Below are positions 11,645-23,855 of a stretch of 64,000 bases of DNA, piece after piece. A program made the position numbers and the translations under genes. A model generated the notes under the pieces. The model was not told the origin of the DNA, did not search any database, and worked only from the letters and a program-made list of their open reading frames with translations. Position 1 is the first letter of the stretch, and each line of letters starts with the position of its first letter. The stretch comes from Gammaproteobacteria bacterium TMED78 (GTDB lineage Bacteria > Pseudomonadota > Gammaproteobacteria > Steroidobacterales > Rariloculaceae): NCBI GenBank assembly GCA_002171615.1, contig NHEF01000010.1, positions 62,001 through 126,000 on the forward strand, in the 5' to 3' direction.

Positions 11645-12652
11645 ATGACATTAAAACAACTCAGATACTTGATATGTATTGCTGACAATGGATTAAATAT
11701 TTCATCGGCAGCAGAGAAGCTATTTACAAGCCAGCCAGGGATAAGTAAGCAACTAAAATATCTAGAAGCAGAGCTTGGTATGCAGTTATTCAAAAGGAAA
11801 GGAAAAAGCCTCACTTCAATCACAAGCGCTGGTTTTGAAATAATTGAAAGAGCAAGAAATATTTTAAGAGAATCCGAGAATATTAAAAATTTAGCTGGGG
11901 ATCTTAGTGACGAAGAAGAGGGCAAATTATCTATTGCAACAACTCATACTCAAGCTAGATATATTTTGCCAGATGTTATAAAAAACTTCGTTAAAAAATA
12001 TCCTAAAGTTGATTTAGAGCTACATCAAGGAACTTCAGAACAAATAGCAGAATTAGTTAATACTCATCAAGTTGATTTTGCTATGGCAACAGGAGCTACT
12101 AAATATTTTCCTAGCTTAAAAATACTTCCAATCTTTAATTGGAATAGAATAATTTTAGCACCTAAAAATCATCCAATAACTAAATTACCCCTAAATTTAG
12201 ATTCACTTGCATCTTTTCCCTTAGTTACTTATATCTTTAGTCTTACAGGTGACTCATCATTCAAAGAAAGTTTTCAAAAAAAGGGGCTTAATCCTCGTGT
12301 TGTATTTACAGCTAGAGATGCAGATATAATTAAAACCTATGTCCGTATTGGTATGGGAGTAGGAGTAGTAGCATCAATGACATTTGAGATAGGAGATTCT
12401 AAAGATTTGGCTGCTTTAGATGCATCTGATTTATTTCCCGAAGTAACAACTTGGATAGGCTTTCCTAAAGACATGGTCCTAAGAAGCTATATGACAAAGT
12501 TTATCAATATGCTTTCTCCAATTTATAACAAGCACTTAATTAAAAAAATAATCAGTTGTGATGACCAGATTTCAATTGATAATTTGATAAGTAAAATTGA
12601 TTTTCCTGTATATAGATTTTCTTCAAAGGAAAATAGAGTAGATTTAGTTTAA
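11645..12652 (+). CDS. cysB: LysR-family regulator, CysB-like
   Basis: 335 residues. The N-terminal winged helix-turn-helix is MTLKQLRYLICIADNGLNISSAAEKLFTSQPGISKQLKYLE. The effector domain begins with LSIATTHTQARYILPDVI and QGTSEQIAELVN, the signature of CysB/Cbl, whose TTHTQARY loop binds sulphate or acetylserine. This suggests control of sulphur assimilation; divergent cysK is the obvious target. The C-terminus is somewhat longer than short LysR proteins, as in CysB. Its 3' end overlaps the convergent FAD-oxidase gene by 9 nt. Cbl or another paralogue is possible. Confidence 0.85.
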   Translation: MTLKQLRYLICIADNGLNISSAAEKLFTSQPGISKQLKYLEAELGMQLFKRKGKSLTSITSAGFEIIERARNILRESENIKNLAGDLSDEEEGKLSIATTHTQARYILPDVIKNFVKKYPKVDLELHQGTSEQIAELVNTHQVDFAMATGATKYFPSLKILPIFNWNRIILAPKNHPITKLPLNLDSLASFPLVTYIFSLTGDSSFKESFQKKGLNPRVVFTARDADIIKTYVRIGMGVGVVASMTFEIGDSKDLAALDASDLFPEVTTWIGFPKDMVLRSYMTKFINMLSPIYNKHLIKKIISCDDQISIDNLISKIDFPVYRFSSKENRVDLV

Positions 12653-14002
12653 TTTTTTTGCTGTCAGAATTCCAGATTCCATTGCGCCTTCCATGCCTCT
12701 ATTCTCTTTTGCTAAATGCTCGCCACAGAAATGAATATTATTATGAGACATCCCAATAATTGAAAAATACTTACTAATTTGACCTGGTTTGTAGTATGCC
12801 CATGCGCCTTTGGAAAATTTTTCATTACCCCAAGAAACAAGGTCAATGAATTCTAATTGTCCCTTTATTGCAGGCCTTAAGCTTTCAATAGTTTTAATTA
12901 TCAGCTCCCCTGCTTCTTTTTTTTGTAACTTATCAAGCTTATTTGCATTTTCTCCAAAGACCCATGAGGTAAAACTTGTGATCTCATCTGGGCTTTTACT
13001 ATCCCTTGATGCACTAAACATCCCAGCTAATGAATCTGTAAATAAACTAGGATTATATCCATCTAATTCCCAAAATTTTGATTTATAACTAAAATAAATT
13101 TGCGTCATTGGCTGATAAGGTATGTTATTTATTGCTTCATACTGTTTTGGGGGAAGAGTGGGTGTAAATATAATTCCTTTCAATACACTCAAAGGAACTG
13201 AACAGATCACATGAGTAGCTATATATTTGCTTCCATCCTCACAAAATATTTGTGCCTCATCTTTTCCTGAATTAATATTTAAAACATTTTTCTTAAAGTG
13301 AACTTCATTTTCTAACTGAGAGGACATAGCATCAGTAAAGGCACTGACTCCATTTAATGCTGTGTAACCAATTACTTTATCGTCTATAATTTTCTGATCT
13401 GAGGAAAATGCCGCTCTATACAATAATAAAAGTGTAGAAATATCTTTAGCATCTAAACCATAACTAACATTTATACCATAAACTAGCTTAATCTGATCTT
13501 CACTAAAACCTTTTCTCTTTAACCATTGATCAAATGGAATATCATAAATAAAATTCTTCTTATCTAACCACTCTCCAGCACTATTTAATGGGTTATATTT
13601 CTTAGTAAGCACTCTATATAATGACCATGGCATAATATTTCTAAACTTTTCAGGAAAAATATTTTTTTTACTACTAGGCCAATCTTTTTGTATAATTATT
13701 TCATTATCTAAAGCAAAGTCTTGCTCCTTAAAAAAAGAAAGCATATGAGAAACGTCAATCAGATCAATATTATTTCTTTTTGCAAATTCTATGACCATTT
13801 TATACTTAGCACCTATATAGGTTCCTCCTGCTTCTCTATTGCTACCAAAATGTTGCATAGAGTGAATTCTTCCACCAACTCTATTATTTGCCTCAATCAC
13901 TTGAACACTTAATCCCATTCTCTGTAATTCTAATGCAGCTGATAATCCAGATAATCCTGCACCAATAACAATAACTGATCGCTTTATTTTTTTTGATGAC
14001 AC
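12644..14002 (-). CDS. FAD-dependent amine-oxidase-family protein, last gene of heme operon
   Basis: The track ORF begins at 14080 inside hemH. I favour the GTG at 14002, which overlaps the hemH stop as TAGTG and yields SSKKIKRSVIVIGAG, 452 residues; an ATG at 14026 is the alternative. The Rossmann dinucleotide site is VIVIGAGLSGLSAALEL with VIEANNRVGGRIHS. The C-terminal FAD segment is NIHFCGEHLAKENRGMEGAMESG. Internal motifs (AGGTYIGAKY, WGNEKFSKGAWAYYKPGQ) look like monoamine oxidases rather than classic HemY. Its position at the end of a complete heme operon suggests it oxidises a porphyrinogen (CgoX/HemY role). That is inference; a plain amine oxidase remains possible. Confidence 0.75.
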   Translation of the reverse strand: MSSKKIKRSVIVIGAGLSGLSAALELQRMGLSVQVIEANNRVGGRIHSMQHFGSNREAGGTYIGAKYKMVIEFAKRNNIDLIDVSHMLSFFKEQDFALDNEIIIQKDWPSSKKNIFPEKFRNIMPWSLYRVLTKKYNPLNSAGEWLDKKNFIYDIPFDQWLKRKGFSEDQIKLVYGINVSYGLDAKDISTLLLLYRAAFSSDQKIIDDKVIGYTALNGVSAFTDAMSSQLENEVHFKKNVLNINSGKDEAQIFCEDGSKYIATHVICSVPLSVLKGIIFTPTLPPKQYEAINNIPYQPMTQIYFSYKSKFWELDGYNPSLFTDSLAGMFSASRDSKSPDEITSFTSWVFGENANKLDKLQKKEAGELIIKTIESLRPAIKGQLEFIDLVSWGNEKFSKGAWAYYKPGQISKYFSIIGMSHNNIHFCGEHLAKENRGMEGAMESGILTAKKLN

Positions 14003-15084
14003 TAATCTATTTCTTCCGCTTGGCATAAAGAGGGCTTTGTTGGTCCGGACCTTCCAGATAGACAGCAATCTGGAGGACAATAATTATGACTTGGGCCTAA
14101 AACTCCCAAACTAGGTCTATTGCTATCCCCCCTTAACCGCTCTTGAATTAAGCTTGTTACCATAGATATATAAGTTGGATGGTCTCCGACAGTATTAGCT
14201 CTAACCATATTTATATTTTTCTCTTTAGCTATTGCTTTTGCCTCTACATCAAGATCAAGAATCACCTCCATATGATCACAAACAAAACCTATAGGAACTA
14301 TAACTAAATTCTTATATCCTCTGCTTGGTAAGCCTTTGATAGCTTCTTCTATATCTGGTTCAAGCCATGGCTCTCCATAAGAGGCATTATTACTTTGGAA
14401 TATGAGTTCCCAATTTTTAGCTCTTAATGAACTTGCAACTAAAAAACTAGCTTCCTTTAATTGAGCTACATATTTAGTATTTTTAGCCATTGAAAGAGGT
14501 AAGCTATGTGCTGTAAAAAAAATAATCGTCTCTTTCTCATCAAATGACCCAAAGCCTTCAATAGCATCCTTGGCTCGAGAGGTAACTGCTTCTATGAAAC
14601 TAGGATGATTAAAGCCTAATCTCAGTTTATCCACTTTAAAAGGGCTGCCTAGAGTCTCATTAGCTACATATAGATCTTCTCGGTATTTCCTACAACCACT
14701 ATATGAACTAAAAGTGCTTGTAACGAAAGTTATAATATTTTTTACACCATCATCTTGCATAGCTTTAAATGTATCTTTAAGCATGGGATGCCAATTTCTA
14801 TTACCCCAATAAACAGGTAAATCAATATTATTCTTTAATAAATCTTTCTTTAGTGCAGTTATAAATTTTCTAGTTTCTTCATTTATTGGACTTATGCCAT
14901 CAAATTGTTGATATCTTTTAGCTATGGCATGTTTAGCTCTATCTGGAACATTTAATCCTTCTAGTACATTATCCAAAAATGGCAGAACGTCATCCATCCC
15001 CTCGGGCCCCCCAAAAGAAAGCACTAATAAAGCATCATAATTATTACTGCCGCCATCAATTAAATGTTGTAATTTACTTGCCAT
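14002..15084 (-). CDS. hemH: Ferrochelatase, actinobacterial-like Cys-rich type
   Basis: 360 residues. It inserts ferrous iron into a porphyrin. YDALLVLSFGGPEGMDDVLPFLDNV, GISPIN, VYWGNRNWHPML and SYSGCRKYREDL follow the actinobacterial ferrochelatase pattern closely, unlike typical gammaproteobacterial HemH. The catalytic His is in FFTAHSLPL (His193) and the acidic partner in DHMEVILDLD (Glu273). Cys131 (in YSGC) and a C-terminal NYCPPDCC cluster (Cys336, 340, 341) are candidate [2Fe-2S] ligands, as known for mycobacterial HemH. Such enzymes usually act on coproporphyrin III. It starts 3 nt after the hemQ-like stop. Confidence 0.92.
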   Translation of the reverse strand: MASKLQHLIDGGSNNYDALLVLSFGGPEGMDDVLPFLDNVLEGLNVPDRAKHAIAKRYQQFDGISPINEETRKFITALKKDLLKNNIDLPVYWGNRNWHPMLKDTFKAMQDDGVKNIITFVTSTFSSYSGCRKYREDLYVANETLGSPFKVDKLRLGFNHPSFIEAVTSRAKDAIEGFGSFDEKETIIFFTAHSLPLSMAKNTKYVAQLKEASFLVASSLRAKNWELIFQSNNASYGEPWLEPDIEEAIKGLPSRGYKNLVIVPIGFVCDHMEVILDLDVEAKAIAKEKNINMVRANTVGDHPTYISMVTSLIQERLRGDSNRPSLGVLGPSHNYCPPDCCLSGRSGPTKPSLCQAEEID

Positions 15085-15087
15085 TAC

Positions 15088-15852
15088 CTACTTAAGAGAA
15101 ACTCTATACTCATCTATACCTTGACTTTGATAATGCCAAATACTCTTTCCGACAAAGAAAGGTCCTAAGCTTTCTAAATATTGAGAGGTTTGTTCAGTTG
15201 TTCTCATTTCTTCAACGACAGCAGAAAGGGGATGTATATGAGAGCCTAATAATCCAATAACAAAATCATTATCATTTTTATCTAATCCATGACAAGCCAG
15301 TCTTATATCTGTAGCTAAGTTATCATGGCCATATCTTTTTGCTAAACTACCGTGTTCACCTAGAATTTTCTTTTGTTTAGCTTCTGGCAAAACATAAAAT
15401 TCCTTCTTTCTCCGAAGTGGATACCAAATTCCAAACTCATTATTTTTATCAAGAACCTTACGCAAAGGTCTGGCCAATAAGGTTTCTTCTAGGTCTTGCT
15501 CATAACCAATAGAATAAGTTCTTCCTAGCATATCAAATTCAGGCTTATGATTAAGTAGGGAAAAAGATTTTGATTGAAAAATTTTTCTTAAAGAATTTGA
15601 TCCAAGGCTAATATATTCATTTCTATACCAATTAATAATTCCTATACCTGTAGGATCATTAAGATCTTGATAAATAACAGCAGATATGTCACTTCTTTTA
15701 AAAGCCCTAGTAATATCCTTTAACATTTCATTATCTTTACAATTATTAAAGGCCGTAAATTTTATAAATAATCTTGTATCAAGGGAAATCTGCTTCCCAT
15801 CTTTCATGCCTTTTTCGCTTAGATCGAGTATATCCTCTTTTTTATCAGCCAT
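15088..15852 (-). CDS. hemQ: Chlorite-dismutase-family protein, HemQ/ChdC-like
   Basis: 254 residues. HemQ (ChdC) converts coproheme to heme b with peroxide. IWYPLRRKKEFYVLP...ILGEHGSLAKRY matches the family core; Tyr144 aligns with the reactive tyrosine and His167 (EHG) with the proximal heme ligand by spacing. GLDKNDNDFVIGLL, EEMRTTEQTSQYLESLG and PFFVG are further family signatures. The N-terminus (about 1-20) is charged and probably flexible. It lies between hemE (8 nt upstream) and hemH (3 nt downstream), which favours coproheme decarboxylase over chlorite dismutase. The function is inferred; key residues were aligned from memory. Confidence 0.8.
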   Translation of the reverse strand: MADKKEDILDLSEKGMKDGKQISLDTRLFIKFTAFNNCKDNEMLKDITRAFKRSDISAVIYQDLNDPTGIGIINWYRNEYISLGSNSLRKIFQSKSFSLLNHKPEFDMLGRTYSIGYEQDLEETLLARPLRKVLDKNNEFGIWYPLRRKKEFYVLPEAKQKKILGEHGSLAKRYGHDNLATDIRLACHGLDKNDNDFVIGLLGSHIHPLSAVVEEMRTTEQTSQYLESLGPFFVGKSIWHYQSQGIDEYRVSLK

Positions 15853-15860
15853 ATTATCTA

Positions 15861-16880
15861 TTACCTATTCTCTTCATTATGTATTTCATCAATTAAAGCA
15901 TCTACACTCTCTAAAGGAGTGCTTGGCATAATGCCATGTCCGAGATTCATAATATGGCCAACTGGGTCAACACTTTTAAGAATTTTTCTTGTCTCTTGGC
16001 GCGTTACTTCCGGGCCAGCAACAAGAATCGCAGGGTCTAAATTACCCTGAATTGCCCTATTCTTTCCATAAAGATTTTTTATCTCTGATAAATTAACCCT
16101 CCAATCAATAGCCAGCACCTCAGAAGGTAGAGCAGCATAAGAGCTAATTAAATGTGGAGCATTCTGTAGAAAGAGAATTCTAGGCACATTAGTTTTACCT
16201 ATTTCAGAAAGTAAAAATTCTAAATGGGGCTTAATGTGTCTCTGCCAACTATCTAGAGATAATAAACCAGCCCAAGAATCAAATATTTGTACTGCATCTA
16301 CACCTGCTTCTACCTGACTTTTAAGATAGCTAATCATATGTAATGTGATTTTTTCTAATAGTCGTTCCATAACTTCTGGCTCTGAAGCTAAGAAAGATCT
16401 TAATTTTGGAAAATCCTTATTACCTTTGCCTTCAACTAAATAAGCTGATAGTGTCCATGGAGCACCACAAAAGCCTAATAATGCTATTTCATTAGATAGC
16501 TCACTTCTTGTTTGAGCAATTGCCTTCATTACTTCTGGAGCAATTTCTTCTGATCCCGTCTCAATAAGCTTATCTACATCTTTATTGTCAGAGATAGGAT
16601 TAGTAATAACCGGGCCAGGGTCAAAATCAAAATCAATTCCTAAAGATGGAACAGGACTCATAATATCAGCAAAAATTATAGCTGCATCTAAATTAAATCT
16701 CTTAATAGGAAGAAGAGTCACCTCGGTAGCAAAATCAGGTGATCTAGATAAATCTTTAAAACTATGTGTTTTTCTCAGAGTTCTATATTCCGGCAAATAT
16801 CTTCCAGCTTGCCTCATAATCCATAAAGGCCTTCTACTAGTTTTTTTTCTATATATAGTTTCTAATAATATTTTCTTCAA
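15861..16880 (-). CDS. hemE: Uroporphyrinogen III decarboxylase
   Basis: 339 residues, normal size. It removes four acetate carboxyls from uroporphyrinogen III to give coproporphyrinogen III, the branch point between the two heme routes. The N-terminal signature RRPLWIMRQAGRYLPEYR carries the conserved Arg pair. IIFADIMSPVPSLGIDFDF holds the catalytic Asp. The C-terminal NLGHGIMPSTPLESVDALI is also typical. The start is TTG at 16880 with AAGGA 8 nt upstream. It is flanked by the response regulator gene (19 nt) and hemQ-like gene (8 nt). Confidence 0.96.
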   Translation of the reverse strand: MKKILLETIYRKKTSRRPLWIMRQAGRYLPEYRTLRKTHSFKDLSRSPDFATEVTLLPIKRFNLDAAIIFADIMSPVPSLGIDFDFDPGPVITNPISDNKDVDKLIETGSEEIAPEVMKAIAQTRSELSNEIALLGFCGAPWTLSAYLVEGKGNKDFPKLRSFLASEPEVMERLLEKITLHMISYLKSQVEAGVDAVQIFDSWAGLLSLDSWQRHIKPHLEFLLSEIGKTNVPRILFLQNAPHLISSYAALPSEVLAIDWRVNLSEIKNLYGKNRAIQGNLDPAILVAGPEVTRQETRKILKSVDPVGHIMNLGHGIMPSTPLESVDALIDEIHNEENR

Positions 16881-16899: not shown

Positions 16900-17610
16900 T
16901 TAATTATCTTCTGGAGAAATTGTAAATCTATAACCTACTCCTCTAATAGTATGAAAATATTGAGGTGATTCTGGATTAATTTCAAACCTTTTCCTTAGCC
17001 TAACTATAAAATTATCAATGGTTCTAGTAGATGGAAATACTTCATAGCCCCATACTTTATCCAGTATTTCTTCTCTTGGTATAACGTTTTCCTTATTCTC
17101 TGAAAAAAGCTTCAATATCATAACTTCCTTGTAAGTCAATATATGGTCAGCCCCATCCCATGATTTTGCCTGATAGGTTTTAAAATCAATAGAATTCTCA
17201 CCAAATTCAAAAATAGAATTTTTGCCATTTAGCCATTCAGTCCTTCTCAATATTGCCGAAATCCTCAATAATAACTCCTTCAAGTGAAAAGGTTTGCCCA
17301 GATAGTCATCTCCACCAACCTCAAGACCAGCAATTCTATCATCTAAGCTATTTTTAACTGTCAAAAAAAGTATTGGTACATTTAATCCTGCAGATCTAAT
17401 CCTATTACATACCTCAATGCCATCTAGCTTAGGCATCATTACATCGAGTAAAATTAGATCGTAGATGCCTTCTAGTGCCTTACGTAGCCCTTCTTCGCCA
17501 TCATGAGATATTTCAATATCATAACCCTCAGCTTCTAGGCTATCCCTTATTCCTTCAGCAATATTAATTTCATCATCAATAACTAAAATTTTATGCATCT
17601 TTTTATCCAT
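16900..17610 (-). CDS. OmpR-family response regulator in heme operon
   Basis: 236 residues. Receiver domain 5-120 has the acidic pair DDE, phosphoacceptor Asp in LILLDVMMPKLDG and Lys in GKPFHLKELL. The C-terminal winged helix has LTYKEVMILKLFSEN, VWGYEVFPSTRTIDNFIVRLRKRFE and RGVGYRF. It follows its kinase by 6 nt and precedes hemE by 19 nt. A second ATG at 17598 is also possible. Likely DNA-binding target unknown; autoregulation of the heme operon is a reasonable guess. Confidence 0.93.
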   Translation of the reverse strand: MDKKMHKILVIDDEINIAEGIRDSLEAEGYDIEISHDGEEGLRKALEGIYDLILLDVMMPKLDGIEVCNRIRSAGLNVPILFLTVKNSLDDRIAGLEVGGDDYLGKPFHLKELLLRISAILRRTEWLNGKNSIFEFGENSIDFKTYQAKSWDGADHILTYKEVMILKLFSENKENVIPREEILDKVWGYEVFPSTRTIDNFIVRLRKRFEINPESPQYFHTIRGVGYRFTISPEDN

Positions 17611-17616
17611 TACTGA

Positions 17617-18615
17617 TTATTTTTGCCAAGAAATAATAAATTTAGCCCCTTTATTCATTCCTTCACTTATAGCCTCTATCTTTCCTTCTGTTAAGTTAAC
17701 TAATTTATTAACAATATATAATCCCAATCCGCTACCAGGCATTGTTCTTACTAACTCATCACCAGATCTATAAAACTTCTCAAAAATCATTAGTTTATCT
17801 TCTTCTGGGAAGCCAATGCCATTATCCTTAAAAGTTAATTTTACTTCGTCATCTCTATACTCAGTCTTTATTTCAATATTAAAAGTATTTGCAGCTTTAC
17901 ATGCTTTAATTGAATTATCTATTACATTTCTAATTATAGACTCAAGAAGTATTCTATCTGAGTTAAGAGTTAAATTTTTATCTAAATCTAATGAAAAGTT
18001 CATTTTTTTTAATGAATCATCTGAGAAATCAGCTAAGCAAGACTCAACAATACTACTAATATAAATCTCTTCTCTTACGATCATAATCTTGCCTGATTCT
18101 ATCTTATTTGTATCTAATAAATTATCAACCATTCTTAAAAGTCTATCCACATCACTTAGAACTCTTATCGCTCCATCCTTATGCTCACCAGAAACTTTAT
18201 CAAACAAAATAGTCTCTGCTGTTAGCCTCATACTAGTTAAAGGTGTTTTTAATTCATGAGACACAGCTGCAAGAAAATTCTGCTGTCTTTTTCTCAGTTC
18301 ATATTCTCTTCTTATTGTCTTTGTCAGTATCCCAATACCTATAACTAAAACAAATAAAAAGAACGCTCCTTCCCAAATAACCCTATTTATTCTTCTTTCT
18401 GTAGTTTCATATAAAACTTCAATATACTCTTCATTATACCTAGCTGATTCTTCATTTGGATCAGTAGTAATAAGAACGGATAAAAACTCATCTCTAACTG
18501 ATTGTGCATAATCTATCTGATCAGTAATCCAAAATGTAACTTGTGCTATCGAGACAATAAGAAGAATTAATAACCCTATCTGCAAAACATGGATGGGATT
18601 AAATCTAGAAAACAT
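17617..18615 (-). CDS. Sensor histidine kinase in heme operon
   Basis: 332 residues. Two transmembrane helices (about 9-30 and 81-101) enclose a short periplasmic loop of about 50 residues, with no recognisable sensor fold. The H-box is AAVSHELKTPLTSMRLT, the N-box SIIRNVIDNSIKAC, then FKDNGIGFPEED (G1) and GSGLGLYIV (G2). It overlaps the hemL stop by 11 nt and the response regulator follows after 6 nt, so its expression is tied to heme synthesis. The small loop suggests sensing within or near the membrane. The signal is unknown; heme, iron, porphyrin or redox state are candidates. Confidence 0.92.
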   Translation of the reverse strand: MFSRFNPIHVLQIGLLILLIVSIAQVTFWITDQIDYAQSVRDEFLSVLITTDPNEESARYNEEYIEVLYETTERRINRVIWEGAFFLFVLVIGIGILTKTIRREYELRKRQQNFLAAVSHELKTPLTSMRLTAETILFDKVSGEHKDGAIRVLSDVDRLLRMVDNLLDTNKIESGKIMIVREEIYISSIVESCLADFSDDSLKKMNFSLDLDKNLTLNSDRILLESIIRNVIDNSIKACKAANTFNIEIKTEYRDDEVKLTFKDNGIGFPEEDKLMIFEKFYRSGDELVRTMPGSGLGLYIVNKLVNLTEGKIEAISEGMNKGAKFIISWQK

Positions 18616-19924
18616 TTATCTCACCGCTATTTTTGTTAAAACTACAGCTAGTAAATATTTTTTCTAACTTTTCTGAGAAAAAATCAATATGCTCTTTTGT
18701 GTGCTCAGATGATAGAAATCCTACTTCATAAGCAGATGGAGCAATAGATATTCCATTCTCAAGTAATGCATGGAATAATCCTGAAAAAGTTTTAGCAGAT
18801 CTTTCATCAATACTCTCAGAAGATCTTGGTTGAGTATTTGTATGAAGTGCTAACCAAAAAATTGAACCAACCCTAGAAAAATATAAGCCAAAAGGCGCTT
18901 TGCTTTTAATTGAATTTACAGAATTTTCTAAATATCTTCCTAAATCATCTAAATAATCCCAGACATTTTCATTCTTTAAGTGTCTAAGTGTTGCAAGTCC
19001 AGCTGACATTGCAACAGGATTGCCAGATAATGTACCGGCCTGATATACGCCTCCAGTAGGAGCAAGATTTTTCATTATCTCTTTACTTGAGGCAAACGCT
19101 CCAACTGGCAAACCTCCTCCAATAACTTTTCCAAAAGTTGCTATATCTGGCTCTATATTATAATAACTAGCCGCACCTCCTTTCCCTATCCTAAAGCCCG
19201 TTATTACCTCATCAAAAATTAAAATTGTTCCATACTTTTCACATAATTCTTTTAATAACTTAATAAATTCTTTTCTTTGGACTAGAAGTCCATTATTTGC
19301 AGGAATAGGCTCAATTATCACTGCAGCAATATCAGCGCCTTCATTTAAAAAAAGTTCAGTTAAGCTCTCCTCGTTATCTAATTCTAATACTCTAGTTAGA
19401 TCAGTATAATTATCGGGGATACCTTCTGAAGAAGGCTTACTAAAAGTTGCTAAACCCGAGCCAGCTGAAACTAATAATGAATCTACGTGTCCATGATAAC
19501 AGCCTGAGAACTTAACTATTAGATCTCTTTTTGTTGTTCCTCTAGCAAGTCTTATTGCGCTCATCACTGCTTCTGTCCCTGAGGAGACAAACCTAACTTG
19601 CTCAATACCAGGATAAGAAGATACCACTTCTTCAGCTAATATAATTTCAGGCTCGCAAGGGGCTCCGAATGAAGTACCCAAGCTAGCGGCCTCTTTAATT
19701 GAATCAATAATTACTGGGTTAGAATGACCAAGAATAAGAGGACCCCATGATCCCATAAAATCTAAATATTGATTCCCGTCCTGGTCATTAATATAAATAG
19801 AATTTCCTGATTTAATAACTATTGGATCTCCACCAACTGCCTGGAAGGCTCTTACGGGAGAATTAACTCCAGCAGGAAGGACATTCTGGGCTCTATCAAA
19901 TAAATCTTTAGATCTAGACCTCAT
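18605..19924 (-). CDS. hemL: Glutamate-1-semialdehyde 2,1-aminomutase
   Basis: About 439 residues, PLP enzyme. It converts glutamate-1-semialdehyde to 5-aminolevulinate. PAGVNSPVRAF at the N-terminus, FVSSGTEAVMSAIRLARG, the PLP Asp in LIFDEVITGFR and the Schiff-base Lys in TFGKVIGGGLPVGAFA are all present. The track opens at 19930. The ATG at 19924 overlaps the hemB stop as ATGA and has AAGG 9 nt upstream, so I prefer it. With hemA this marks the C5 route to aminolevulinate. Confidence 0.96.
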   Translation of the reverse strand: MRSRSKDLFDRAQNVLPAGVNSPVRAFQAVGGDPIVIKSGNSIYINDQDGNQYLDFMGSWGPLILGHSNPVIIDSIKEAASLGTSFGAPCEPEIILAEEVVSSYPGIEQVRFVSSGTEAVMSAIRLARGTTKRDLIVKFSGCYHGHVDSLLVSAGSGLATFSKPSSEGIPDNYTDLTRVLELDNEESLTELFLNEGADIAAVIIEPIPANNGLLVQRKEFIKLLKELCEKYGTILIFDEVITGFRIGKGGAASYYNIEPDIATFGKVIGGGLPVGAFASSKEIMKNLAPTGGVYQAGTLSGNPVAMSAGLATLRHLKNENVWDYLDDLGRYLENSVNSIKSKAPFGLYFSRVGSIFWLALHTNTQPRSSESIDERSAKTFSGLFHALLENGISIAPSAYEVGFLSSEHTKEHIDFFSEKLEKIFTSCSFNKNSGEINVF

Positions 19925-20904
19925 AACCATCTACCTTCTATTGCATCTCTAGCATGATAAGAAATTATCTGATTTGCACCAGCTCTTGCAATTGCATATA
20001 AATTCTCCCTCACAACTAATGCTTCATTTAGCCACCCTCTTTCAGCCGCTGCCTTAATTGATGCATACTCTCCAGAAACATTATAGGCTGATAAAGGTAA
20101 TGAAGATTCAGAACTTACTGCTTTAATAATATCAAGAAAAGCAAGTGCGGGCTTTACCATTAATATATCAGCACCTTCTTCTTCATCTATTTTTGCCTCT
20201 CTAATTGCTTCTTTGGTATTTCTTATATCCATTTGGTAAGTTTGCCTATCACCCCAAACAGGAGATGAATCTGCAGCCTCCCTAAATGGTCCATAATAAG
20301 CTGACGCATATTTAACTGCATAAGACATAATTCCTACATCTTCTAAATCTTCTTTATCAAGAGTAGTTCTAATCTTCTTAACTCTACCGTCCAACATATC
20401 TGAAGGGGCAACAATATCTACTCCTGCTTCAGCATGGCTCAAAGCTATTTTTGCTATGGCCTCTATAGACTTATCATTAACTATCTTCTCATTTTGAATG
20501 AAACCACAATGCCCATGATCGGTATATGCACAAAGACAAACATCAGTAATCACAACGACATCATCTCCGAAGTTAGCCTTGAGGCTCCTTATTGCACCCT
20601 GTAAGGTACCATTTGGATCCCATGCCTGCCTTCCATCACGAGACTTATCTTTTGCATCCTTTGTCTGTCCAAAAAGTAAAATAGCTTTAATACCTAACTT
20701 CAAATCAATATCTACCTCTTTTAAAAGTTTATCTATACCTAACCTATACCTACCAGGCATTGAAATAATTTCTTCTTTCGCATTTTTTTTAGCCAAAAGG
20801 AAATGGGGTATAATAAATTGCTTTGAGGATATACTTAGCTCAGAATTTAAATCTCTGATTGCTTTAGACCTTCTATTTCTCCTTGGTCTTTTAATAATAT
20901 TCAT
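19921..20904 (-). CDS. hemB: Delta-aminolevulinic acid dehydratase (porphobilinogen synthase)
   Basis: 327 residues. It condenses two aminolevulinates to porphobilinogen. The metal site DVCLCAYTDHGHCG has three cysteines, the zinc-type triad, not the Asp-rich magnesium form. Schiff-base lysines are expected in APSDMLDGRVKKIR and ILMVKPALAFLDI. The N-terminus RPRRNRRSKAIRDL is typical. The start overlaps the hemD stop as ATGA, and the end overlaps hemL likewise, so translation is coupled on both sides. Confidence 0.96.
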   Translation of the reverse strand: MNIIKRPRRNRRSKAIRDLNSELSISSKQFIIPHFLLAKKNAKEEIISMPGRYRLGIDKLLKEVDIDLKLGIKAILLFGQTKDAKDKSRDGRQAWDPNGTLQGAIRSLKANFGDDVVVITDVCLCAYTDHGHCGFIQNEKIVNDKSIEAIAKIALSHAEAGVDIVAPSDMLDGRVKKIRTTLDKEDLEDVGIMSYAVKYASAYYGPFREAADSSPVWGDRQTYQMDIRNTKEAIREAKIDEEEGADILMVKPALAFLDIIKAVSSESSLPLSAYNVSGEYASIKAAAERGWLNEALVVRENLYAIARAGANQIISYHARDAIEGRWL

Positions 20905-21617
20905 TTCATCACCTTAATTAATCCTGCCAAACTTGGCTCCCTTGACATACCTGTCACTTCAATACCTAAGCTCTTGGCCGTCTCATTAGTCGTTGGTCCA
21001 ATAGTATAAATATCTTTTTTAACATCAACTTCTACCTGATTAATAAAACCTATTATAGAAGAGGGGCTAGCAAAAAAAATAGTATTTATATTAAAGCTGG
21101 ATAATAACTTTTTATTTTCTAATTTCTCAAATGGAATAGTTCTGTATGTATTCACCCTTTCACAAAATATTTCTGCTGAATTTAGTCGAAATTCAATTAC
21201 ATCTGAAGCATTTTCTGCAACTACCAATAAAACGCTACTCCCTCTTTTGATGATTGAAAGAAGTTCTTCAGAAAAGGATCTTGAATCGCTCTTTTTTCCT
21301 ATATAATCGACTCTATTAAAATAATTTCTACATCTTTCTGCAGTGCTTTTTCCTATTGCTGCTATCTTGGTGTAAGAATCTATTTCACAATTTTTAATTT
21401 TATTAAAGCTTTCTACGCCATTTTTTGATGTAAAAATAATCCATTCTTTTTTATTTATATTATATGAGCTATCAAGTAGAGAATTCTCAATAGATTCTAA
21501 ATATATACAAGGAAAAATAGTGCTACCAATACCTAGTTTATCTAGTTCGTCTGACCACTCAAAACTATCTTCACTACTCCTAGTCACTAATACTCTATAA
21601 TCAGATTTTTTACTCAT
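20901..21617 (-). CDS. hemD: Uroporphyrinogen III synthase
   Basis: 238 residues. It closes hydroxymethylbilane to uroporphyrinogen III with inversion of ring D. The family is poorly conserved; support comes from YRVLVTRSSEDSFEWSDELDKLG at the start, IIFTSKNGVESF, TKIAAIGKSTAE, the late FFASPSSIIGFI and YTIGPTTNETAKSLG, and from position directly after hemC (8-nt overlap) and before hemB (ATGA overlap). Confidence 0.88.
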   Translation of the reverse strand: MSKKSDYRVLVTRSSEDSFEWSDELDKLGIGSTIFPCIYLESIENSLLDSSYNINKKEWIIFTSKNGVESFNKIKNCEIDSYTKIAAIGKSTAERCRNYFNRVDYIGKKSDSRSFSEELLSIIKRGSSVLLVVAENASDVIEFRLNSAEIFCERVNTYRTIPFEKLENKKLLSSFNINTIFFASPSSIIGFINQVEVDVKKDIYTIGPTTNETAKSLGIEVTGMSREPSLAGLIKVMK

Positions 21618-22524
21618 AATTTGTTAATATTTCCATAGCTTTTTTAAATATTATCTGTCTATTTTTTCCACTCACTCTCGCCTCTATCAACTCTTTATCT
21701 AATTCTAATCTAGCGAATAAATTAATATCGCCAGTATCTCCTTTTGGAGATCTACAATATGCACCAAATGGTAACTCACAACCTCCTTCAAACTGAGCTA
21801 ACAAAAGCCTTTCTAAGTTTATATCTTTTGTTGAATCTATATCTGCAATATTTTTTATAACCTTGCTTAAATTTTTATTTCCTTTAAGGCATTGGAGCGC
21901 GATCGCGCCTTGTGCTGGGGCAGGTATAAATTCCTCAGGATCTAATCTAGTTACAGAAAATTCATCAAGATTTAAATCAAAACCATCATCTAAAAGCCTT
22001 TTAACTCCTGCATTGGCTAGAACTATTGCATCATAACCCTGATTAATTTTTTTTATCCTTGTAGGAACATTACCTCTTATAGGCTTAATTTTTAAATCTT
22101 TTCGGAAATGTCTTAGCCAGGATTTACGACGAGCAGATGAAGTACCAACTACTGATCCTTCTTTCAATGGTATAAGCCCAAGTGAGTTATCATAATAATT
22201 TTTGTTTGAAATAATAATATCAGCAGGATCTACTCTTTCGCTAATTGCTGCTATGGTAAGCTCTTTAGGTGAGACTGTTGGCAAATCTTTTAAAGAATGG
22301 ACAGCTAAATCAATTTCACCATCAATCAATGCATTTTCTATTTCTTTTACAAAAACACCTATTGGCCCAATATTGCTAAAAGTAGTTTCATCAGAAAGAT
22401 CTCCAGCAGTATCTATAGTTATTAGCTGAGATTGATAGCCCATATCCAATAAGCTATTGGCTACAGTCTTAGATTGGCTTATAGCTAAATCAGAACTTCG
22501 AGTGCCTATTCTTATCTTCATCAT
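21610..22524 (-). CDS. hemC: Hydroxymethylbilane synthase (porphobilinogen deaminase)
   Basis: 304 residues. It polymerises four porphobilinogens on a dipyrromethane cofactor. IRIGTRSSDLAISQSK opens domain 1; AVHSLKDLPT is the catalytic Asp region; GTSSARRKSWLRHFR and IRGNVPTRIKKI bind substrate carboxyls; FEGGCELPFGAYC contains the cofactor-bearing cysteine. The start overlaps the hemA stop (ATGA). Confidence 0.96.
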   Translation of the reverse strand: MMKIRIGTRSSDLAISQSKTVANSLLDMGYQSQLITIDTAGDLSDETTFSNIGPIGVFVKEIENALIDGEIDLAVHSLKDLPTVSPKELTIAAISERVDPADIIISNKNYYDNSLGLIPLKEGSVVGTSSARRKSWLRHFRKDLKIKPIRGNVPTRIKKINQGYDAIVLANAGVKRLLDDGFDLNLDEFSVTRLDPEEFIPAPAQGAIALQCLKGNKNLSKVIKNIADIDSTKDINLERLLLAQFEGGCELPFGAYCRSPKGDTGDINLFARLELDKELIEARVSGKNRQIIFKKAMEILTNYE

Positions 22525-23855
22525 CTTACTTTCTCATTTCTCTTCTCAGGCACTAATCTCATAGCATTTTTTAATTCTTTAGAAAAATCATCATCGATGC
22601 CTTCTAAAAAAGCTTCTAGTGAGCCCTCGGGGCCCTTTTGCATAAGACCTCTTAACCCAACAGATGGAATATGAGCAAAGCGTTTAGCAAGAGCATTACA
22701 CCAAACCTTTATTGCATCTTTTTCTTTATGGCCTATACCTTTTAATTCTTTTTTCATTAGCTTTTTAAGTCCTTCATTTGCAGTAAAAAGATACTTATCT
22801 TGCAAAATAGAAAAAACAGGAGCATAAATTCTTTCTGCATATTTTCCAGAAAGATCTTCTAGCGATTTATCAATAATTTCTCTAGCTATAGCTGCTTCTC
22901 TTTTTCTTACCTCTTGATTTAATTTAGCTTCGTTATTTATTTGGTCTAAACTCACTCTTTTAATACCAAAAATATTACATGCTTCGGGACTAATATCAGA
23001 AGTTAAAGACATATCAATAAACAACTTATCACCCACTGATTTTTTTTCGTTACATATAGTATTTAAAAAATTTTTATCAAAAATATAGTTACTAGAGCTA
23101 GTAGATGATAGAAGACTTGAAAATCTACTTGGTGAAGATAAAAAATTATCTAAGGAATAATGCTCAGTATTATACTTTTTAGAAAGTGAAAAAAATTTAC
23201 TTTTAGTTCTATTTACAAAGAAAAATGGAATTTTTAAATCGTAAAGAGATTGTGCTAACCTTGTTGTAAAATCTGAAAAACCAACTATAGCAACAGGCTC
23301 TTTATGAGTATTGAAATGTTTCTCAATATGTTTGATAGCTAACTCTGATAAAGAAGTTTTACCCTTACCTATCCCTGTTACTTTTCTAACATTTGCTGAA
23401 ACCTTTAATGCCTGTTCAAATAGTAACTCTAATTTTTTATCTAAAAAATTATTTTTTAGATGATAATCTCTACACTTTCTCACTTGACCCGTTATCTCTA
23501 CTTCTCCTAAGGCCGCAGAATCAAGACCTGAAGTGACTAAAAAAATATGCTCACAGGCTCCCTCAGAATGCCAAGCCTTAAGTTTTCTTATTGCTTCACC
23601 TGGCAAGGCTATATTTCCTGTTAATAACTCATAAATGAAAGGTCTTAAATCATTATATTTAGTATCTTTAGTAGTAGAATAAATAACTTCAACTCTATTA
23701 CAAGTTGATAAGTAAGCAATACCTGAAAGACTATATTTGGCTTTAAAATTATTTAATTGCTTTGCTAGGTTTTTCTCAGATAGAAGATAATTCTGTAGAT
23801 CAGCACTTTTACTTTGCTTCCATGAAATCCCCACAACATTTAGATCATTAAACAT
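22521..23855 (-). CDS. hemA: Glutamyl-tRNA reductase
   Basis: 444 residues. First enzyme of the C5 pathway, reducing glutamyl-tRNA to glutamate-1-semialdehyde. The catalytic cysteine is in AYLSTCNRVEV. LGEVEITGQVRKC replaces the more usual GExQILGQV motif. The NADPH domain has VAIVGFSDFTTRLAQSL, with GFSDF instead of GxGxM, a divergent nucleotide motif. The C-terminal dimerisation helix is present. Many residues differ from enterobacterial HemA. First gene of the ten-gene heme operon; promoter proposed at 23885-23914; no clear ribosome site. Confidence 0.92.
   Translation of the reverse strand: MFNDLNVVGISWKQSKSADLQNYLLSEKNLAKQLNNFKAKYSLSGIAYLSTCNRVEVIYSTTKDTKYNDLRPFIYELLTGNIALPGEAIRKLKAWHSEGACEHIFLVTSGLDSAALGEVEITGQVRKCRDYHLKNNFLDKKLELLFEQALKVSANVRKVTGIGKGKTSLSELAIKHIEKHFNTHKEPVAIVGFSDFTTRLAQSLYDLKIPFFFVNRTKSKFFSLSKKYNTEHYSLDNFLSSPSRFSSLLSSTSSSNYIFDKNFLNTICNEKKSVGDKLFIDMSLTSDISPEACNIFGIKRVSLDQINNEAKLNQEVRKREAAIAREIIDKSLEDLSGKYAERIYAPVFSILQDKYLFTANEGLKKLMKKELKGIGHKEKDAIKVWCNALAKRFAHIPSVGLRGLMQKGPEGSLEAFLEGIDDDFSKELKNAMRLVPEKRNEKVR

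Follow-up and report, generated by a model that had tools for sequence, protein, structure and literature searches.

The coproporphyrin-dependent (CPD) route to heme and its coproheme decarboxylase, ChdC (HemQ), are already known. The route occurs almost exclusively in Gram-positive bacteria, the diderm exceptions being Planctomycetota and Acidobacteria (PMC10991733, PMC10427985, PMC10740692), and we found no description of it in Gammaproteobacteria in the literature searched. ChdC and the chlorite dismutases (Cld) differ at two active-site positions: Clds carry an isoleucine at the position of the catalytic tyrosine of ChdC (PMC7611857), and the position occupied by Gln187 in the Listeria ChdC is that of the catalytic arginine in Cld (PMC5157759). 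The stretch of gammaproteobacterial DNA analysed here (64,000 nucleotides, hereafter the window) carries a gene, chd (15088..15852, minus strand), with an ATG start codon and a 254-residue product. The original prediction that this product is HemQ-like is supported by the analysis, which points to a larger finding, a switch of pathway with a probable, unorthodox coproporphyrinogen oxidase (CgoX). We estimate at about 0.88 the probability that Chd, as a member of a divergent clade, is a coproheme decarboxylase acting within a complete CPD pathway encoded by one operon.

This operon is an unbroken series of 11 genes on the minus strand (23855-12644), in the order hemA-C-D-B-L, histidine kinase, response regulator, hemE-chd-hemH, FAD oxidase. 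From hemA to hemH, the genes overlap or are separated by fewer than 20 bases. Library matches identify hemA (glutamyl-tRNA reductase, 22521..23855), hemD (uroporphyrinogen-III synthase, 20901..21617), hemB (porphobilinogen synthase, 19921..20904) and hemL (glutamate-1-semialdehyde aminomutase, 18605..19930), while hemC (hydroxymethylbilane synthase, 21610..22524) was assigned from its sequence, its position in the operon and tblastn matches to the equivalent slot in related loci. As had been predicted, chd is flanked by hemE upstream (uroporphyrinogen decarboxylase, 15861..16880, TTG start; TIGR01464, 386 bits) and by hemH downstream (ferrochelatase, 14002..15084; PF00762, 258 bits). The last gene (12644..14026) encodes a monoamine oxidase (MAO)-like FAD oxidase, a candidate non-canonical CgoX; it begins with an ATG at 14026, within the final bases of hemH. 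The order hemE-chd-hemH-FAD oxidase was found in 28 loci. Library matches also identify a sensor histidine kinase (17617..18615) and a response regulator of the PhoB/OmpR type (16900..17610), which form a pair (16900-18615) between hemL and hemE and have counterparts in the equivalent place in 21 related loci. By analogy with HrrSA of Corynebacterium, this pair may sense heme, porphyrin or peroxide.

The only Pfam family given for Chd is PF06778 (chlorite dismutase), with a match of 57 bits against a cut-off of 25 that is confined to the C-terminal half (residues 136-237). No library profile matches the N-terminal half, which is also kept across the clade of the protein. The curated NCBIfam HemQ models give scores far below their cut-offs (39.8 against 235 bits for NF042928, and 28.4 against 253 for NF008913). 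Since these models describe known subgroups only, such scores reflect the divergence of Chd and do not exclude it from the family; an NCBIfam cut-off is a rule for naming, not a defining property of an enzyme. The ChdC clade to which the window protein belongs is thus overlooked by the curated annotation models. The protein is conserved in each of the 22 genomes of the GTDB family to which the window belongs, which rules out a chance open reading frame.

The genome from which the window comes (1.57 Mb, 98.8% completeness, one chd gene) and its relatives lack the enzymes that lead to protoporphyrinogen. HemF scores above its cut-off in 28 of 36 genomes of the sister families, compared to only one of the 22 genomes of the window's own family. 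This sole match (genome G019, positions 279-1157) lies on a contig of 3,356 bases in an assembly with 5% contamination and is therefore likely to result from binning contamination, so that a hidden HemF in the family was set aside. HemN is above its cut-off (325 bits) in none of the 22 genomes; the matches to this model reach 131-144 bits in the family and 18.6 bits in the window's genome, and we take these proteins to be HemW-like or to belong elsewhere among the radical-SAM enzymes. Neither HemJ nor HemG was found in the window's genome; three relatives show weak HemJ matches (about 60 bits) and two a flavodoxin-type HemG match above cut-off. The HemY cut-off is reached by no member of the family. 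The same holds for HemF and HemN far beyond it, as neither was found above cut-off in any of 33 Chd-bearing genomes from many phyla. Thus, the genomic signature of ChdC, namely the presence of a CpfC-type ferrochelatase (see below) together with the absence of HemF and HemN, is found here. Without HemF or HemN, the known enzymes yield no protoporphyrinogen, and heme must therefore arise via coproheme. Four genomes of other families of the order (G032, G033, G035 and G048, from families f12, f13 and f15) are devoid of true HemN, HemJ and Chd, with HemF weakly matched or absent and a good HemH present in f12 and absent in f13 and f15; these organisms may be auxotrophic for heme or may obtain it by another route.

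The CgoX of the pathway is none of HemY, HemG and HemJ, and the FAD oxidase is a candidate for this step. Its gene adjoins hemH in 29 loci, and the copies encoded in heme operons group together in one clade (100/100). The protein, present as a single copy, is the best match of the window's genome to the HemY model (TIGR00562), with 43 bits for a cut-off of 97.9. Like HemY, which acts as CgoX or PgoX, it has an FAD-binding Rossmann region and a place in the pathway next to hemH, but its predicted structure (pLDDT 89) is nearest to monoamine and putrescine oxidases and also matches L-amino-acid oxidases, and no porphyrinogen oxidase appears among the top 50 fold matches. It could be held, on the strength of this resemblance, that the protein is an amine oxidase unrelated to heme, coproporphyrinogen being oxidized non-enzymatically or by some other enzyme. 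The relatives of the FAD oxidase in the sister families f12, f13 and f15 point the same way: they have no hem gene within about 7 kb, for which reason they were not retained as heme genes, and this means that the wider family has other work to do. We nevertheless consider this explanation rather unlikely, given that the heme-operon copies are fixed beside hemH as a single clade and that the one copy in the window's genome is found there without HemY, HemG or HemJ. It would in any case concern the CgoX step only, and is compatible with Chd being a ChdC. From its position and the lack of alternatives, the FAD oxidase is likely to be a coproporphyrinogen oxidase recruited from the amine oxidases.

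The ferrochelatase, too, departs from those of the neighbouring families. The best match of the window HemH in the PDB is a coproporphyrin III ferrochelatase (CpfC; entry 28wn, 231 bits, the others not exceeding 122). The two proteins are 39% identical and share the catalytic His/Glu pair (His193 and Glu273 in the window), the proximal phenylalanine (Phe24) and a similar C-terminal cysteine motif, although the window HemH is encoded in a proteobacterial operon. A proximal phenylalanine has been described for actinobacterial CpfC (PMC10427985). Its nearest relatives outside Proteobacteria are the HemHs of Chd-bearing Caldilineaceae and Phycisphaeraceae (46-48% identity), as against about 22% identity with the alignable HemHs of the window's own order. 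In a tree rooted at its midpoint only, 12 HemHs of the sister families fall on one side (100/100), and the window protein and eight other HemHs from Chd operons form one clade (100/100), nested in a group that contains all the PDB CpfCs used (100/99). The window HemH thus groups with the CpfCs, apart from the PpfCs of the sister families. Taken together, the PDB match, the identities, the tree and the conserved residues indicate that the ferrochelatase was exchanged as well. In addition, an SGC sequence and a C-terminal C-x3-CC motif are common to the window HemH and 28wn, and are also present at three related loci (L027, L032 and L047), which suggests that a CpfC-type HemH of Proteobacteria carries a [2Fe-2S] cluster.

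The original prediction had pointed to Tyr144 (in GIWYPL) and His167 (in GEHG) as having the arrangement expected of a ChdC, and had asked for a comparison of structures; the alignment of residues and the ranking of predicted folds agree with it. In an alignment of 40 relatives, from which the conservation profile was derived, both residues are invariant (40/40). Tyr144 (15421..15423, minus strand), the predicted radical tyrosine, aligns with Tyr135 of the Corynebacterium diphtheriae enzyme (CdChdC) and Tyr147 of the Listeria enzyme (LmChdC); His167 (15352..15354, minus strand), the predicted proximal heme ligand, aligns with His158 and His174, respectively. The spacing between the two residues, 23, is identical to that in CdChdC, a feature shared with actinobacterial ChdC. 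Three further residues are invariant in 40/40: Arg148 aligns with a conserved Lys/Arg that follows the tyrosine in the solved ChdCs and, counted along the alignment, Arg217 falls on LmChdC Arg220 and Thr222 on Ser225, so that all three can be proposed as equivalents of residues acting in catalysis or propionate binding. At the distal position, corresponding to LmChdC Gln187 and to the catalytic arginine of Cld, stands an aspartate, Asp182 (15307..15309, minus strand), again in 40/40, where ChdC has a glutamine in Firmicutes and an alanine in Actinobacteria. The distal His118 of the actinobacterial enzymes has no counterpart among the invariant residues of Chd.

A search of the PDB with the profile of 40 relatives returned mainly ChdC and ChdC-like entries, and a single Cld (E = 1.3). 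The AlphaFold (AF2) model of Chd (pLDDT 92, pTM 0.87) has the two-domain alpha+beta barrel subunit of ChdC, and in a fold search of the PDB with this model ranks 1-42 are occupied by ChdC or ChdC-like structures, Clds appearing from rank 43. The fold, the catalytic tyrosine, the proximal histidine and the equivalents of Arg148, Arg217 and Thr222 are all found in the ChdC structures compared (Listeria 5loq and 6fxj, Geobacillus 5t2k, C. diphtheriae 6xuc, Streptomyces coelicolor 9miq), but identity with the characterized enzymes is only 13-18%, with TM-scores of about 0.65, and the N-terminal half escapes the family profiles. Such values denote a deep divergence of Chd.

This very low identity could be taken to mean that Chd only binds coproheme, as a regulatory protein or a heme chaperone, and that decarboxylation is carried out by AhbD or another enzyme. 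Several radical-SAM proteins with weak matches to the HemN model do occur in other Chd-bearing genomes, but the window's own genome offers nothing beyond the 18.6-bit match; moreover, the residues equivalent to those of catalysis and propionate binding, Tyr144 and His167 included, are all invariant, and Chd co-occurs completely with the loss of HemF and HemN across phyla, which makes this explanation very improbable. Slightly weaker still is the case for a chlorite dismutase, or for a heme peroxidase of a general kind, co-transcribed with heme genes by chance, a reading in line with the Pfam name and with the common fold of Cld and ChdC, with its proximal histidine: the distal arginine required in Cld is replaced by the invariant Asp182 and the ChdC tyrosine stands where Clds have isoleucine, on which grounds a chlorite dismutase was rejected, and the loss of HemF/HemN together with a CpfC-type HemH leaves coproheme as the product of the ferrochelatase, so that a decarboxylase is needed. 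The identification of Chd as a ChdC accords with the alignment of residues, the ranking of folds, the absence of HemF, HemN, HemJ and HemG, and the type of HemH.

Within its order, chd is restricted to the window's family: it is present in 22/22 genomes of the family and in 0/36 genomes from 15 other families. In an even sample of the class (n=274 genomes), the protein was found in the window's own genome only. In public genomes, whose taxa are those of the deposited titles, some of the names given to metagenome-assembled genomes (MAGs) being clearly unreliable, the Chd clade extends to other Proteobacteria, Chloroflexota, Elusimicrobia, Acidobacteria, Dadabacteria, Thermodesulfobacteriota and Phycisphaerae. 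The Chloroflexota copies likewise lie in heme operons (hemA-C-D-B-chd-E-H). In Elusimicrobia, Acidobacteria, Dadabacteria, Phycisphaerae and Thermodesulfobacteriota, chd has no adjoining hem genes, and some of these genomes (mostly MAGs of unknown completeness) have no HemH match; both observations count against the identification as ChdC. At eight loci of Thermodesulfobacteriota and Dadabacteria (L042, L053, L061, L062, L065, L085, L099 and L102), a gene for a hemL-like aminotransferase (about 30% identity) lies in the opposite orientation about 2 kb from chd, which adjoins no other hem genes there. In a tree built by a quick method, the 33 proteobacterial heme-operon copies of Chd form one clade (SH-aLRT 99) among those of other phyla. 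This is consistent with lateral acquisition. On balance, we favour mixed origins for the CPD module, which would combine a distal-Asp ChdC clade, an imported CpfC and a CgoX of the MAO type that is not HemY.

The pathway can be envisaged as follows. HemA, HemL, HemB, HemC, HemD and HemE would lead to coproporphyrinogen III, which the flavin oxidase encoded beside hemH probably converts, with O2, into coproporphyrin III and H2O2. The CpfC-type HemH would then insert iron into coproporphyrin III, giving coproheme, which Chd would hold through His167. We infer that the H2O2 is handed over to Chd and oxidizes it, and that a radical on Tyr144 decarboxylates propionates p2 and p4 to vinyls, yielding heme b. 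The invariant Asp182 may aid the activation of peroxide or help to place p2. The CPD module would have displaced HemF/HemN, HemJ/HemG/HemY and the ancestral PpfC in the window's family.

We conclude that the terminal heme pathway of the family has been switched from the protoporphyrin- to the coproporphyrin-dependent route. Three points are new within the literature searched: the replacement across an entire gammaproteobacterial family, a ChdC clade with a distal aspartate, and a candidate CgoX of the MAO type. A gammaproteobacterial family with a CPD operon that has lost HemF and HemN bears on the idea that the type of envelope decides the heme pathway. It is a natural experiment in which an essential pathway was replaced in a whole family, and it offers a test case of whether a flavoenzyme of the amine-oxidase type can fill the CgoX step.
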